DNA from: an uncultured Prevotella sp.
GTDB taxonomy: Bacteria; Bacteroidota; Bacteroidia; Bacteroidales; Bacteroidaceae
NCBI GenBank assembly: GCA_905235325.1
Contig: CAJOLE010000001.1
Span: 31,364-95,363 of the forward strand
Length of the DNA stretch: 64,000 bases
Direction: 5' to 3'
Position 1 is the stretch's first letter, and the number at the start of each line of letters is the position of its first letter. Under the pieces are notes generated by a model. That model ran no database searches. It was not told the origin of the DNA and saw nothing but the letters and a program-made list of their open reading frames with translations. Positions 2,266-58,974 of this stretch are shown one piece after another. The translations under genes and the position numbers were made by a program.

Positions 2266-3078
2266 TTACAGCAGGTCAAGGCACTGCTCGATGGGGATGC
2301 CCCGCTTCTTGTCGTCGAGGTCGCGGTTGCGGTCGATGAGGCTGCTGACCACGTCCATGGCGGTGCGTGTACACTGCTTGAGTGGTTCGCCCTTCATCAG
2401 GTGGCCAATGAGCACGGCCGAGAAGATGTCGCCCGTGCCGTGGATGAGGACGGGAATCTCGTCGTAGTCGAGCCTGAAGTACTCGCCGTCGCAGTGGTTG
2501 TAGCCGATGACGCAGCTCTGGCCCTCGACACAGGCACTTGTGACGAGTGCCGAGCGGCAGCCGATGTCGCGCAGGCGGCTGAGCATCTCGCGGGCCTCCT
2601 GCTGCTTCATGCCTTCGGGCAGGTAGGGCATCGAGGTGAGGTAGCAGGCCTCGGTATAGTTGGGGAACGTCAGGTCGGCCACGGCCACCATCTGCCGCAT
2701 CAGCTCGACAGAGCGCTGCGTGATGCCGTTGTAGAGCCGCCCACCGTCGCCCATGATGGGGTCGACGAAGATGGTGGTGCCCTGGCGGGCCAGCTCCGTG
2801 CAGTACTTCGACACGAGCAGGGCCTGCTCCTCGCTGAACATCAGTCCGGTGCAGACGGCGTCGAAGGTGAATCCGAGCTCGCGCCAGACGGGCAGCACGC
2901 CGCGCATATACTCCGTCGTGTCGAGCACGTTGAAACGGCCGTAGTCGAGCGTGTTCGACACGAGCGACGTCGGCAGGTTGTACGTCGGGTGGCCGAGGTA
3001 GGTCAGTATGGGCATCATGGCCACCATGCCCACGTGGCTGTAGCCTACGACGTCGTTGATGAGCAGTATCTTCTTCAT
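2266..3078 (-). CDS. Pyridoxamine/pyridoxal kinase family (PdxY-like)
   Basis: MKKILLINDVVGYSHVGMVAMMPIL; DPIMGDGGRLY and HGTGDIFSAVL motifs. Confidence 0.85.
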   Translation of the reverse strand: MKKILLINDVVGYSHVGMVAMMPILTYLGHPTYNLPTSLVSNTLDYGRFNVLDTTEYMRGVLPVWRELGFTFDAVCTGLMFSEEQALLVSKYCTELARQGTTIFVDPIMGDGGRLYNGITQRSVELMRQMVAVADLTFPNYTEACYLTSMPYLPEGMKQQEAREMLSRLRDIGCRSALVTSACVEGQSCVIGYNHCDGEYFRLDYDEIPVLIHGTGDIFSAVLIGHLMKGEPLKQCTRTAMDVVSSLIDRNRDLDDKKRGIPIEQCLDLL

Positions 3079-3145
3079 TGCGGGTGCAAAGTTACGCATT
3101 TTTTCGTAATCATGCAAACATTCGTCGGCTTTCGTTCACCTTTTG

Positions 3146-3463
3146 CCCGAAACCCGCCGCCTTTTCAGCAAAACCCGCCGCCTTTTGCGCAAAACCCGCC
3201 CCCTTTTGGAAATTCCATGCTGCGGAATACGTCATTCCTGCCTGCTTGCAAGGTGTAGGTTCAGGTGTAGGTTCAGGTGTCGGTTCGCCGTCGCCGACCG
3301 GCCTGCCAGCCTCGTTTTCGGCGTTTCCCTTTGCACCTTATCCCTATATATAGTTGTCAATAGCAGGTTTTATCCTACACTTCCTACACTTCCTACACCT
3401 AAAAAGTTTCAACAGGTGTAGGAAGTGTCGGTAGTGTAGGATGTATCCTGCTATTCGTAATTA
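3146..3463 (+). repeat. Composite intergenic repeat, copy A (forward): 21-nt units, 12-nt units, TATATA block, 9-nt-unit hairpin
   Basis: Three AAACCCGCC(G/C)CCTTTT units from 3146; AGGTGTAGGTTC x3 from 3251; CTATATATAGTTGT; hairpin arms 3371-3400 and 3414-3445; outer pair AATAGCAGG (3359-3367)/CCTGCTATT (3447-3455). Confidence 0.9.
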
Positions 3464-3586: not shown

Positions 3587-5464
3587 ATGAACGCTATAGA
3601 GGCACTGACACGGCAGCGACAGCTGCTCCAGATGGAGTATGAGACGGAGAAAGAGGCTTACCGCCGCCAGACCGAGGAACGCGGACTGGCACGGCTGGTG
3701 AAGCGCGGCGATGCGTGGTGGCCGGTCAGCATCGGCCGCAGCTACTTCAACTCGCTGAACCAGCTCTGCGTCGAGGTGTTTCGCATGGCCGACCAGGACG
3801 TCGAGCACAACTTCGAGTACGGCCGGCCGGTGGTGTTCTTCACCAGAGAGGAGCAGCGGCATAAGTATTATAGCTTCACAGGCACCGTGAGCTATGCCGA
3901 CGGCGACCGGATGGTGGTCAGCGTGCCCGACACGGCACCCCTCGCCGACCTGCAGGCGTCGCCGAGCATCGGCGTGCAGCTGTCGTTCGACGAGACGTCG
4001 TACCGCACGATGTTCGACGCCCTCGACCGCGTCATCAGCGCCAAGGGCCGGCTGGGCTACCTGCGCGACCTCTTCTACTCCCGCCAGGAGGCAGCGACGT
4101 TCACCTTCGCGCCGCTGCACTTCCCCTACCTGAACAAGACGCAGGAGGAGGCGGTGAACAAGGTGCTGAGGGCGAAGGACGTGGCCGTGGTTCACGGGCC
4201 GCCGGGCACGGGCAAGACGACGACCCTCGTCGAGGCCATCTACGAGACGCTGCGCCGCGAGCCGCAGGTGCTGGTCTGTGCGCAGTCGAACATGGCCGTC
4301 GACTGGATTTCGGAGAAGCTCGTCGACCGCGGCGTGCCCGTACTGAGAATAGGCAATCCGACGCGCGTCGACGACAAGATGCTCAGCTTCACCTACGAGC
4401 GCCGCTTCGAGAGCCACCCCGACTACGAGCTGCTGTGGGCCATCCGGAAGGCCATCCGCGACCTGCGTGCCCACCGCAAGCGGGGCGACGAGAAGTACCA
4501 CCAGAAGATGGAGCGGCTGAAGGACCGCGCCACGGAATTAGAGATACGCATCAACGCACAGCTCTTCGGCGAGGCCCGCGTCGTCGCCTCGACGCTGGTA
4601 GGCTCCGCCCACCGGCTGCTCGACGGCCATAAGTTCGGCACCGTCTTCATCGACGAGGCGGCGCAGGCCTTGGAGGCCGCCTCGTGGATACCCATCCGCC
4701 GCTGCACGCGCGTCGTCCTGGCCGGCGACCACTGCCAGCTGCCGCCGACGGTGAAGAGCATCGACGCCCTGAAGGCCGGACTGGGCACGACGCTGATGGA
4801 GCGCATCGTCGGGCAGAAGCCCGAGGTGGTAACGCTGCTGCGTATGCAGTACCGCATGAACGAGGAGATTATGCGCTTCAGCAGCGACTGGTTCTACGGC
4901 GGACAGGTGGAGTCGGCGCCCGAGGTGAAGTACCGCTCGATACTCGACCTCGACGTGCCGATGGAGTGGGTGGAAGCCTCGCATGACCCCACGGAAGAAG
5001 GTGAAAAAGGCTTCGAGGAGTTCGTCGGCGAGTCGTTTGGGCGCATCAACAAGGTCGAGGCCGAACTGACGCTGCTGACCCTGCAGCAGTACTTCGAGCG
5101 CATCGGCAAGACGCGCATCCTGAACGAGCGGCTCGACGTGGGCATCATCTCGCCCTACCGCGCACAGGTGCAGTATCTCAGGTCGCAGCTGAAGAAGAGG
5201 GAGTGGTTCAAGCCCTTCCGCCAACTCATCACGGTGAACACCGTCGACGGCTTCCAGGGGCAGGAGCGCGACATCGTCGTCATCTCGCTCGTCCGCTCGA
5301 ACGACGAGGGGCAGATCGGATTCCTGCGCGACCTGCGCCGCATGAACGTGGCCATCACGCGAGCCCGCATGAAGCTCATCATCCTCGGCGACACGGCAAC
5401 GATGACCCGCCACCCCTTCTACCGCCGCCTCTACGAATACATTGAGGCCCTGAAGCAGGGATGA
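3587..5464 (+). CDS. SF1 DNA/RNA helicase, AAA domain (UPF1/DNA2/SMUBP2-like)
   Basis: Walker A GPPGTGKTTT; DEAAQALE; GDHCQLPPT; YRMNEEIM; TVDGFQGQERDIVVISLVRS; MNVAITRAR. Confidence 0.93.
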   Translation: MNAIEALTRQRQLLQMEYETEKEAYRRQTEERGLARLVKRGDAWWPVSIGRSYFNSLNQLCVEVFRMADQDVEHNFEYGRPVVFFTREEQRHKYYSFTGTVSYADGDRMVVSVPDTAPLADLQASPSIGVQLSFDETSYRTMFDALDRVISAKGRLGYLRDLFYSRQEAATFTFAPLHFPYLNKTQEEAVNKVLRAKDVAVVHGPPGTGKTTTLVEAIYETLRREPQVLVCAQSNMAVDWISEKLVDRGVPVLRIGNPTRVDDKMLSFTYERRFESHPDYELLWAIRKAIRDLRAHRKRGDEKYHQKMERLKDRATELEIRINAQLFGEARVVASTLVGSAHRLLDGHKFGTVFIDEAAQALEAASWIPIRRCTRVVLAGDHCQLPPTVKSIDALKAGLGTTLMERIVGQKPEVVTLLRMQYRMNEEIMRFSSDWFYGGQVESAPEVKYRSILDLDVPMEWVEASHDPTEEGEKGFEEFVGESFGRINKVEAELTLLTLQQYFERIGKTRILNERLDVGIISPYRAQVQYLRSQLKKREWFKPFRQLITVNTVDGFQGQERDIVVISLVRSNDEGQIGFLRDLRRMNVAITRARMKLIILGDTATMTRHPFYRRLYEYIEALKQG

Positions 5465-16078: not shown

Positions 16079-16087
16079 CACCCGCAA

Positions 16088-16168
16088 TTCAAGGGGTGCC
16101 TGCTGTTGCGGGCTGAGATGATACCCTCTACACCTGATCCGGATAATGCCGGCGAAGGGATGGATCGT
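16088..16168 (+). ncRNA. TPP (thiamine pyrophosphate) riboswitch
   Basis: AAGGGGTGCCTGCTGTTGCGGGCTGAGATGATACCCTCTACACCTGATCCGGATAATGCCGGCGAAGGGATGG contains the THI-box core (GGCTGAGA, ACCTGATCCGGATAATGCCGGCGAAGGGA). Confidence 0.97.
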
Positions 16169-16216
16169 AGTTTTATCAACACTATTCCCCCTTTATGATA
16201 ATTAAAGGTAAGAAGT

Positions 16217-20234: not shown

Positions 20235-21446
20235 ATGAAAGAAATCACTAACAAGATCTACTACGTCGGCGTCAACGACCGCAACAAGACGCTCTTCGAG
20301 GGCCTCTGGCCCCTCCCCAACGGCGTGAGCTATAACGCCTACCTCATCGACGACGAGAAGGTCTGCCTCGTCGACACCGTCGAGGCCGACTTCTTCATGC
20401 CCTTCCTCGAGAACATCCGCGAGGTCATCGGCGACCGCCCCATCGACTACGTCGTGGTCAACCACATGGAGCCCGACCACAGCGGCTCGCTGGCCCTGCT
20501 CCGCCAGTTCTATCCCAACATCGAGATCATCGGCAACAAGAAGACCTTCGACATGATGGCCGGCTTCTACCGCCTCACCACCGGCCTCCACGAGGTGAAG
20601 AACGGCGACACCCTCTCGCTCGGCGCCCACCAGCTGCAGTTCGTCCTCACCCCGATGGTCCACTGGCCCGAGACGATGATGACCCTCGCCACCGTTCCGT
20701 CTGTTGCTGTATTACAGCAACAAACAGTACTCTTCAGCGGCGACGCCTTCGGCTGCTTCGGCGCCCTCAACGGCGCCTACGTCGACGAGCAGATGAACTG
20801 CGACACGTTCTGGCTCGAGATGACGCGCTACTACTCCAACATCGTCGGCAAGTACGGCACGCCCGTGCAGATGGCCCTCAAGAAGCTCGCCGGCGTCAAG
20901 GTCGACTACATCTGCGCCACGCACGGCCCCGTCTGGCACGAATATGTTGAGAAGGTTATCGGCATCTACGACCGCCTCTCGCGCTATGAGGCCGAGCCGG
21001 GCCTCGTCATCTGCTACGGCACGATGTACGGCAACACCGAGCGCGCCGCCGAGGTCATTGCCCGCAGCGCCGCCCAGGCCGGACTGAAGAACATCGTGAT
21101 GTACAACGTATCTCAGACCCACCACTCCTACATCATCCGCGACCTCTTCCGCTACCGCGGACTCATCGTCGGCGCACCCACCTACAACACCGGCCTCTAC
21201 CACGAGATGAACGTCCTGCTCGACGAGCTGTCGCAGAAGGACATCAAGGGTCGCCTCTTCGGCTGGTTCGGCTCCTACAGCTGGGCCTCGAAGGCCGTCG
21301 GCGAGATTTCCCGGTGGAACGACGAAAGGCTGAAGTACGAGCCCGTCGGCGAGCCGGTCGAAATCAAGCAGGCCCTCAATGCCGAGACCCTCGCCAAGTG
21401 CGAAGCCCTCGGCCGCGCCATGGCCGAACGGTTGCTGGCCGATTAG
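20235..21446 (+). CDS. FprA-family A-type flavoprotein (metallo-beta-lactamase plus flavodoxin)
   Basis: VVNHMEPDHSGSL; LFSGDAFGCFGALNG; flavodoxin loop YGTMYGNTERAAE. Confidence 0.93.
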   Translation: MKEITNKIYYVGVNDRNKTLFEGLWPLPNGVSYNAYLIDDEKVCLVDTVEADFFMPFLENIREVIGDRPIDYVVVNHMEPDHSGSLALLRQFYPNIEIIGNKKTFDMMAGFYRLTTGLHEVKNGDTLSLGAHQLQFVLTPMVHWPETMMTLATVPSVAVLQQQTVLFSGDAFGCFGALNGAYVDEQMNCDTFWLEMTRYYSNIVGKYGTPVQMALKKLAGVKVDYICATHGPVWHEYVEKVIGIYDRLSRYEAEPGLVICYGTMYGNTERAAEVIARSAAQAGLKNIVMYNVSQTHHSYIIRDLFRYRGLIVGAPTYNTGLYHEMNVLLDELSQKDIKGRLFGWFGSYSWASKAVGEISRWNDERLKYEPVGEPVEIKQALNAETLAKCEALGRAMAERLLAD

Positions 21447-25630: not shown

Positions 25631-25945
25631 GTCAATAAGAGGATTTATCCTACACTCCCTACACTCCCTACACCTGCCCGACTTTTTTAGGTGTAGGAAG
25701 TGTAGGAAGTGTAGGATAAAACCTGTAAATAACAACTATATACCGTGGCAGGGCGCAAGGGGAAACGCCGCCGACGAGGCTGATTGGCCTGTCTGCGACG
25801 CAGAACCGACACCGGAACCTGCACCTGACCCTACACCTTGGGAGCAGGCAGACGGGAATGATACTGCATGGTGGATTTTCAGCAAAACCCGCCGACTTTT
25901 GGGCAAAACCCGCCGCCTTTTGCGCAAAAGGCGGCGGGTTTTGGG
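25631..25945 (-). repeat. Composite intergenic repeat, copy B (reverse orientation)
   Basis: 9-nt-unit hairpin arms 25645-25675 and 25689-25719; 12-nt units 25803-25838; 21-nt units 25875-25945, one inverted to form a perfect 38-nt palindrome at 25905-25942. Confidence 0.9.
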
Positions 25946-33073: not shown

Positions 33074-33448
33074 TAATTACGAATAGCGGGATACAACCTA
33101 CACTTCCTACACTTCCTACACCTGCCCGAAAAAAATTAGGTGTAGGAAGTGTAGGAAGTGTAGGATATAAAGTACAAATAACAATTATATATAAAGAGAC
33201 GAGACATAAAGAAAAACGCCGCCAAGGCGGCCGGCAGGCCAGGCTGCGGCATCGACCCTACACCTGACCCTGCACCTTGGAGGCCGGCGGACAGAAGACC
33301 GAAACGATAGCCCGGTCCGAAGGGATGCTTGCAGGGCGTAGCTGAGCAAGAACGAAAACGGAAGTATGCCTCGGCGTGGAATTTTCGAAAGGCGGCGGGT
33401 TTTGCGCAAAAGGCGGCGGGTTTTGCTGAAAAGGCGGCGGGTTTTGGG
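33074..33448 (-). repeat. Composite intergenic repeat, copy C (reverse orientation)
   Basis: Hairpin arms 33097-33123 and 33138-33164; ACAATTATATATAAAG; degenerate 12-nt units near 33254-33280; three 21-nt units ending near 33448. Confidence 0.9.
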
Positions 33449-33515
33449 TAAAAAGCGTAAGAATGTTTTGTGCTTTCGGCTTTTTTTCTTACTTTTGCAG
33501 AAAAATTATGTAGCT

Positions 33516-50312: not shown

Positions 50313-50612
50313 CCAAAACCCGCCGCCTTTTCAGCAAAACCCGCCCCCTTTTGCGCAAAACCCGCCGCCTTTTCCCATTTAGCCCATTCAGCCCATCAAC
50401 CTTCAACCTCAGGTGTCGGTTCAGGTGTCGGTTCCAGCCCCGCAGCCAGCCTGAAGCCTCCTTATTGCCCTCCGTCCTTACGTCCTGTCGCTATATATAG
50501 TTGTAATATGTACTTTTTATCCTACACTTCCTACACTTCCTACACCTAAAAAAAAGTCGGGCAGGTGTAGGAAGTGTAGGAAGTGTAGGATGTCTCCCGC
50601 GAATCACAATCA
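50313..50612 (+). repeat. Composite intergenic repeat, copy D (forward)
   Basis: Three 21-nt units from 50313; AGGTGTCGGTTC x2; CTATATATAGTTGT; hairpin arms 50518-50547 and 50563-50591 with a 15-nt loop. Confidence 0.9.
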
Positions 50613-54629: not shown

Positions 54630-55313
54630 CTACAGGCTGAAGAAGCCGAAGAAGTAGACGGCGGCCACCCAGCTGCGGTTGGTCATGTTGCGGGCCTCGC
54701 CCACGCGCGAACCTTTCTTATATATATCGCCGTTGGAGCGGACCTCGCCGACGCGGCTCCCGTTCTCGTAGATGTCGCCATTGGAGCGGATCTCGCCGAC
54801 GCGGCGGCCATCCTTGTAGACGTCGCCGTTGGAGCGGAGCTCGCCCTTGCGCGAGCCGCCGACGTAGATGTCGCCGTTGGAGCGCAGCTCGCCACGGCGC
54901 GAGCCGCCGATATAGACGTCGCCGTTGGAGCGAATCTCGCCCTTGCGCGAGCCGCCGACGTAGAGGTCCATGCCACTGCTGGCCGATGTCGCTGCCGGGC
55001 GCGAGAGGCTGGAGGATGTGCTGGTGCTTGATGTAACCGTTGTCGTTGACCGCGTAGCTGTCATGGCACCGTCGGTAGTGCCGGTGGTGGTCGTCGCCGG
55101 GCCTGCTGCGGCGGTGGTAGCTGCCGGCGTCGTCGGAGCCTGCTGCGTGGTGTTGTAATTACTGTTGCTGCCGATGTTCGCTATGGCACCGACGGTAGAA
55201 GCCACATGATTGACGTCGTACATGGCACTGTTGATGCTCGACAACGTGTTCAACGTGTTGCCGCAGGCTGTCAGGGCAGTGGCCGTGATGATGGTCAGAA
55301 GAGTCTTTTTCAT
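54630..55313 (-). CDS. Lipoprotein with tandem 16-aa repeats (beta-flower-like)
   Basis: MKKTLLTIITATALTACG lipobox; Thr/Ser/Ala-rich linker; repeats GGSRKGEIRSNGDVYI. Confidence 0.8.
   Translation of the reverse strand: MKKTLLTIITATALTACGNTLNTLSSINSAMYDVNHVASTVGAIANIGSNSNYNTTQQAPTTPAATTAAAGPATTTTGTTDGAMTATRSTTTVTSSTSTSSSLSRPAATSASSGMDLYVGGSRKGEIRSNGDVYIGGSRRGELRSNGDIYVGGSRKGELRSNGDVYKDGRRVGEIRSNGDIYENGSRVGEVRSNGDIYKKGSRVGEARNMTNRSWVAAVYFFGFFSL
54703..54970 (-). repeat. In-gene tandem repeat, 48-bp period, at least 5 units
   Basis: TTGGAGCG occurs at 54733/54781/54829/54877/54925, spacing exactly 48. Confidence 0.95.
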
Positions 55314-56109: not shown

Positions 56110-56146
56110 ACTTCTCACTCTTCACTTTTCACTTTTCACTTCCCAC

Positions 56147-56467
56147 TTAGTCGAATCCCAGTTCGACCCGCGCTTCTTCTGTCATCATAGACTGGTCCCA
56201 GGCGGGCTCAAAGACCAGGTTGACGTTGGCGGCACGGATGCCGTCGACGCTCTCGACCTTGGTGCGCACGTCCTCGAGGATGAAGTCGGCGGCGGGGCAG
56301 TTGGGGGCGGTGAACGTCATGTCTAACTCGACGGTGGCGTCGTCCCTGATGTCAATCTTATAGATCATTCCGAGGTCAAAGATGTTGACCGGTATCTCCG
56401 GGTCGTAGACGGTCTTCAGCACGTCGACGATACGCTCTTCTAACGTAGACTTTTCTTGTTGTGTCAT
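56147..56467 (-). CDS. MIP18/DUF59-family metal-sulfur cluster assembly factor
   Basis: LKTVYDPEIPVNIFDLGMIYKIDI; FTAPNCPAADFI; FEPAWDQSMMTEEARVELGF. Confidence 0.92.
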   Translation of the reverse strand: MTQQEKSTLEERIVDVLKTVYDPEIPVNIFDLGMIYKIDIRDDATVELDMTFTAPNCPAADFILEDVRTKVESVDGIRAANVNLVFEPAWDQSMMTEEARVELGFD

Positions 56468-58847: not shown

Positions 58848-58974
58848 CGAAAAAAAGTGAAAAGTGGAAAGTGAAAAGTGAAAAAAATGGAGGAAAACTT
58901 GCGTAATCCAAAAGAAATGAGTACTTTTGCACCCCCAAATGATAATAAACAATAAAAAATAAGGATTAAGAGCA

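Follow-up and report, generated by a model that had tools for sequence, protein, structure and literature searches.

This locus raises the question of what kind of element fills the gap between two divergent genes, a pdxY-like gene (2266-3117, minus strand) and a helicase gene (3587-5464, plus strand), in a stretch of 64,000 nucleotides of Prevotella DNA (the window). The original prediction placed in this gap a composite repeat at 3146-3463 (318 bp), recurring in the same module order at three other loci, and read it as a dispersed, domesticated modular family that might be a mobile element or a structured RNA.

Architecture of the Composite Repeat

All of the described modules were recovered, and the directions of the flanking genes agree with a divergent gap. 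On the plus strand, copy A begins with a 21-nt array (3139-3208, 3.3 copies by TRF), followed by a 12-nt array of AGGTGTMGGTTC (3251-3286, 3 copies by TRF), a spacer (3287-3343), and a palindrome (3344-3463). The palindrome was delimited by inverted-repeat analysis and covariation and carries a TATAGTTGT-type terminal inverted repeat and three 9-nt units per arm. The sequence CTATATATAGTTGT begins at ~3344, between spacer and hairpin, and the hairpin arms (3359-3400 and 3414-3455, 42 nt each) are 88% complementary around a loop of 13 nt. Spacer length is nearly constant among copies, at about 60-70 nt when the first TATATA bases are counted, and about three spacer subtypes were distinguished. 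Read on the minus strand, the 21-nt array of copy A yields in-frame QKAAGFA-type heptapeptide repeats that match an array within a vapE gene, and the 12-nt array encodes EPTPEPTPEPTP; copy A is open throughout this vapE-type frame (EPTPEPTPEPTP...QKGAGFAQKAAGFAEKAAGF).

The same module order was found at the three other loci, near 25.6, 33.1, and 50.3-50.6 kb. Copies B (25633-25944) and C (33078-33457) lie on the minus strand and copy D (50314-50608) on the plus strand. In copy B the hairpin (25633-25744) is accompanied by a 12-nt array (25803-25838) and a 21-nt array with some inverted units (25876-25944). The corresponding modules are at 33078-33193, 33254-33277, and 33388-33457 in copy C and at 50490-50608, 50409-50434, and 50314-50374 in copy D; all of these arrays were located with TRF.

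Dispersal in the Genome and the Genus

The genome of origin (G000) is a rumen Prevotella draft of 2.93 Mb in 181 contigs that is 83% complete. A search of this genome gave 103 matches to the composite, the best other copies with E values of about 1e-65, well above chance expectation. The first 41 copies extracted were intergenic without exception (41/41). A search with the terminal-repeat pattern TATAGTTGTYATTYGYA added 19 hairpin sites, one of them the vapE-linked copy, and the reversed pattern had no matches in the same search. Further copies are thus present beyond the window, about 60 in all in this genome and each about 320 bp long; because copies were obtained as individual stretches, these counts are lower bounds.

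Over 203 nt, copies in unrelated flanks reach 97.5% identity. Sequence is shared among copies only from the outer edge of the 21-nt array to about AAYTAT after the hairpin. The G000 copies have no fixed direction relative to genes, and several stand just after intrinsic terminators or stop codons. A stop-codon role was rejected, since genes do not in general end at the TAA/TAG/TGA-like variants of the 3' border. A second short dispersed repeat, GATGCGCCGG....GTTACTGACCCCACCCC, was noticed near several copies, in the downstream flanks of L073, L079, L083, L084, and L085 and upstream of L054.

Comparison with a sister species (G300), whose neighboring helicase gene is 91% identical, gave an empty site. 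The whole insertion containing copy C is missing there, and the flanks adjoin within 7 bp (window 33036/33462 versus G300 contig C14). The inserted DNA exceeds the conserved element in length, and no clear direct repeat indicative of a target-site duplication was seen at this site. In G051, G283, and G425 the pdxY-helicase gap is short, with no element in it. Some copies occupy corresponding sites in G000 and G300; such orthologous copies differ in array copy number and unit orientation. Other copies coincide with breakpoints at which genes were gained, lost, or relocated. At window position 21445, where a 4.3-kb segment of G300 (L226, contig C78) holds two genes and a complete element, G000 has only a short hairpin-end scar (GGTTTTATCCAGCTATTCACAAC), which suggests a deletion through the palindrome. 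The dispersed and modular character of the family was therefore borne out by the copy number, the relatives in the genus, and the empty site; its domestication was not.

The original prediction had also called for a covariance-model search of host and related genomes. Among 398 genomes of the genus, the hairpin model was positive in 51. An order-wide search gave one weak match among 294 genomes outside the genus, so that the hairpin family is practically restricted to it. Diverged hairpins retain the plan of three 9-nt units with altered unit sequences (CCTACACTT, CATCCTACC, CATCCCGCT, CCCGCTTAT, and others). In nested variants of G300, arrays lie within the hairpin loop, with 9-nt and 12-nt inverted arms nested around the 21-nt array; the modules thus form one plan with more than one layout. 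Alternating purine-pyrimidine runs (CGCGCGCG, TATATATA) border the hairpins of several species (L031, L032, L113, L122, and others).

A Short vapE Gene Carries the Same Tandem Repeats in Frame

In G000, one copy of the element lies directly upstream of a gene of 454 codons (L286, contig C144), here called the parent gene. Its order is hairpin, a gap of about 13 nt, ATG, 12-nt repeats, a conserved protein segment, 21-nt repeats, and a VapE-like domain. Both repeats are in frame, the 12-nt repeats as codons for EPAPEPAP (EPAP unit) and the 21-nt repeats as codons for EKAPGFAEKAAGFAEKAPGF (EKAAGFA type). The dispersed copies correspond to the 5' end of this hairpin-vapE unit, minus the helicase domain. 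The encoded protein (P0001) contains domain PF05272 (1e-26) and the Walker A/B and sensor motifs (GPQGTHKST, LVNIDEY, and ATTN). It matched phage DNA helicase/primase families (3e-30) and PDB entry 7pds, annotated as similar to D. nodosus vapE (3.4e-5); no obvious nuclease, integrase, or primase domain was seen in it. A second complex tandem array (L293, 1230-1554; 27-, 68-, and 95-nt periods, GTCCGCTGCCAGAAGAA...) lies behind the G000 gene and extends into its 3' end, adding C-terminal residues.

The short vapE form was found in 13 genomes, all of them drafts. The G300 orthologue is 88% identical, has a hairpin directly upstream, and shares a neighboring S24 gene; the remaining eleven are 59-66% identical. 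A hairpin stands upstream at 11 of the 13 loci; of the two loci without one, one is truncated where its contig stops. Six loci share the arrangement endolysin-like M15 gene, hairpin, vapE. An in-ORF 21-nt array separates EEFRP from WQQLTDRE in 11 of 13 species, a position at which the readable long vapE homologues (about 700 amino acids) have no insert. The 12-nt repeat in the 5' coding part is present in the two closest species. Nearly all of these data come from metagenome-assembled genomes (MAGs), in which hairpin, array, and gene were linked on single contigs.

All 13 genomes with a short vapE are among the 51 of 398 that are hairpin-positive (hypergeometric P = 5.7e-13). In about 38 of the 51 hairpin-positive genomes no short vapE was found; many of these are incomplete MAGs and others may have lost the gene, although G213 (90% complete) and G137 (94%) are not clearly accounted for. 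At least three unrelated 21-nt arrays occur in G213 (L114, L126, L162), one of them between two hairpins, and no vapE gene matching them was found.

The Period Is Constant While the Unit Changes

The array unit of the short vapE differs between species, and related species share units. The dispersed arrays follow the gene of their own species: alignment scores between gene and dispersed arrays were 54-141 in seven of eight species, compared with a background of about 15-25. The exception is a dispersed G051 array (L031), which resembles the G000 array and not that of the G051 vapE. Hairpin, array, and gene thus evolve as a set. In other species, tandem arrays within 300 nt of a hairpin had a period of 21 or 22 in 41 of 48 cases (29.6 kb), compared with 7 of 36 for arrays farther away (153.6 kb), and the hairpin-adjacent arrays kept this period with unrelated unit sequences. 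Arrays at five loci have a period of 22 and so cannot be in-frame repeats. Among dispersed copies, which are mutually related, the coding phase between the 12-nt and 21-nt arrays is kept in 31 of 50 (P = 3e-5); stop codons are often present in such copies.

The Element as a Probable Satellite of vapE

We consider it probable that the element is a non-coding 5' satellite of the single-copy short VapE-like AAA+ (initiator/helicase) gene. This reading draws on the linkage and order of the parts, the in-frame coding, the shared array position in the protein, the species match, the co-occurrence, the dispersal, and the one empty site. Together they suggest an undescribed helper-gene-and-satellite system. 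By analogy with known initiators, the 21-bp array probably represents iterons bound by the VapE protein, and satellite spread probably depends on VapE in trans, as that of REPINs depends on RAYTs. Indirect support for such binding comes from the species-matched arrays.

More tentatively, we propose a host-resident selfish system in which a vertically kept, single-copy VapE-type helicase gene carries a recognition array in its own coding sequence and its product amplifies 5' hairpin-plus-array fragments and disperses them as satellites; the array would be replaced repeatedly while its frame, position, and 21-bp period persist. In the main reading, the parent unit comprises the hairpin with three 9-nt units per arm, the vapE start codon, the 5' coding part, the in-frame 21-nt (7-codon) array, and the helicase domain. 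The dispersed copies keep the hairpin and the 12-nt and 21-nt arrays and lack the helicase domain. The VapE protein would bind the 21-bp array as a row of iterons, like the gene-adjacent iterons of SaPI Rep, and, acting on iterons and hairpin, could amplify or mobilize fragments that then reinsert into intergenic DNA. Since no nuclease, integrase, or primase domain is obvious in the short VapE, the host or some other source would have to supply the functions for reinsertion. The array unit may turn over together with protein specificity, leaving the in-frame period of 21, two helical turns, in place; such a spacing would put the sites on one face of the DNA and also preserve the reading frame.

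Other Explanations of Dispersal

The copies could instead form an ordinary MITE family of an insertion sequence of unknown identity, similar to BrickBuilt. The hairpin arms would then be terminal inverted repeats belonging to a transposase that has been lost or has escaped detection, and the repeats would have inserted into vapE and become coding, with no role for VapE. The element is short, non-coding, and multi-copy, with roughly 50-bp inverted arms at the hairpin, and about 60 copies, an empty site, and near-identical copies in unrelated flanks are what a MITE would leave; BrickBuilt is a precedent for minisatellite-bearing MITEs in Bacteroidales (PMC4596501). However, this explanation would need the in-frame insertion of unrelated arrays at one protein position in 11 species, with a hairpin upstream nearly each time, and we regard it as unlikely. 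No consistent target-site duplication was seen among copies, and, except in the nested variants, the inverted repeats delimit the hairpin and not the whole compact element. No transposase sharing the element ends was found, the gene behind the hairpin being the VapE-like helicase. Among 76 proteins neighboring copies in other species, a set that did not include the parent vapE locus, no family occurred more than twice; no transposase therefore recurs beside the copies, and the lack of any recurrent neighbor follows from the parent gene not being among the loci compared. Membership in BrickBuilt itself was rejected, since the unit here is 21 nt with TATAGTTGT ends, compared with a 23-nt repeat and GAGACC..TGCA-type IS5 ends (PMC4596501).

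Alternatively, the repeats could have spread passively from the vapE locus by slippage, template switching, and gene conversion, without element-specific machinery. Orthologous copies differ in how many array units they have and in how these are oriented, and copies are located at rearrangement breakpoints, both of which are consistent with such processes. Passive spread would not easily place sharply bordered elements at about 60 unlinked sites or keep hairpin and array paired over the long term, which makes a purely passive origin improbable.

The possibility of a structured non-coding RNA, or of a regulatory element acting at the level of transcription such as an attenuator or bidirectional terminator, was assessed from the hairpin stem. 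Among 35 diverse copies, both-side changes were present at 38 of 51 pairs, and the covariation score was 0.28, compared with 0.145 for shuffled and 0.06-0.10 for slid alignments. This strong covariation and the location of some copies right behind intrinsic terminators would suit such an element. However, the mismatches consisted of 15 G.T versus 13 A.C in G000 and 21 G.T versus 32 A.C in G300. In both genomes there was no excess of G.U over A.C in the stem, so the palindrome looks to be kept at the DNA level. The G000 copies also show no preferred orientation relative to genes, no T-run follows the hairpin in this species, and no Rfam match was obtained. The RNA suggested in the original prediction is accordingly not supported, and we consider an RNA or regulatory function very improbable.

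Mobilization of the palindromes by a Y1 (HUH) transposase, as in REPIN/RAYT systems, would likewise pair a single-copy gene with palindromes scattered between genes, and Y1_Tnp genes are present (one in G000, two in G300), but these loci carry other palindromes (such as GTAGGGGCAGGCC) with no match to or trace of the element, and the RAYT link was rejected as having next to no likelihood. The three Y1/RAYT-type genes (L231 on G000 contig C106; L230 and L232 in G300) with their own flanking palindromes (GTAGGGGCAGGCC.., TCACACGGGGACAGTCCCC..) represent an independent REP-like system.

Relation of the Proposed VapE Satellites to Known Systems

The searches returned no described family for the element of the original prediction. 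The Rfam 15 scan of the window returned a TPP riboswitch as its only match, and searches of plasmid and phage DNA gave no real homologue, the weak Gordonia matches covering the 12-nt array only. A literature search, which may miss subscription papers, returned no description of the family. Six viral contigs fitting a loose hairpin pattern were set aside; the one examined (L133) looks like an unrelated phage terminator.

The proposed satellites resemble the REPIN-RAYT partnership in that an enzyme gene present once in the chromosome is associated with numerous short palindromes scattered between genes, whose copies vary within a genome. They differ in that the enzyme is a VapE-like AAA+ helicase and not a Y1 transposase, and in that the satellites include a segment that corresponds to part of the coding sequence of the enzyme itself, tandem array included. 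BIMEs and other REP mosaic elements are likewise intergenic mosaics of several short modules, but with other modules, ends, and gene linkage. The lambda origin lies inside the O initiator gene, where palindromic tandem iterons within the coding sequence differ in specificity between relatives; the O protein belongs to another family, and dispersed satellite copies are not known to accompany it. BrickBuilt and MITE464/PgRS of Porphyromonas gingivalis are Bacteroidales intergenic elements with a minisatellite (23 or 41 nt) and terminal inverted repeats. However, they have IS5-type ends, unrelated sequence, no reported linked gene bearing the repeat, and no conserved period under changing sequence across species (PMC4596501). 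Self-loading initiator helicases of mobile elements offer a parallel for the array: SaPI Rep helicases (7pds Rep) recognize short tandem iterons beside their own gene, and Cch2, a helicase of SCC elements, likewise binds direct repeats next to the gene that encodes it (PMC7581432). The putative iteron array described here differs in lying inside the ORF and in having dozens of dispersed non-coding hairpin-array copies. The parts of the system thus have analogues, because its logic resembles REPIN-RAYT and iterons within or beside a gene have precedents. Taken as a whole, the linked gene, the in-frame array, the fixed period of a changing unit, and the satellites match none of the families tested, and the combination and the enzyme class are without analogue as far as the literature searched shows.

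If correct, the satellite model would give the REPIN-RAYT partnership a counterpart built on a helicase and provide an example of an initiator gene that carries, and repeatedly replaces, its own recognition sites within the ORF. The species-matched pairs of array and gene would form a ready set for following the evolution of initiator-iteron specificity. The family accounts for a large, unannotated class of intergenic repeats in Prevotella, and its copies coincide with breakpoints of gene gain, loss, and rearrangement in rumen members of the genus.

Three further features of the window were recorded. The TPP riboswitch is at 16082-16177 on the plus strand (RF00059, 72 bits). A coding-type tandem repeat with 48-nt and 96-nt periods (TCGCCGTTGGAGCGGAGCTCGCC...) occupies 54727-54968, and heptanucleotide repeats of similar motif, ACTTTTC at 56110-56148 and AAAAGTG at 58853-58884, lie on opposite strands.
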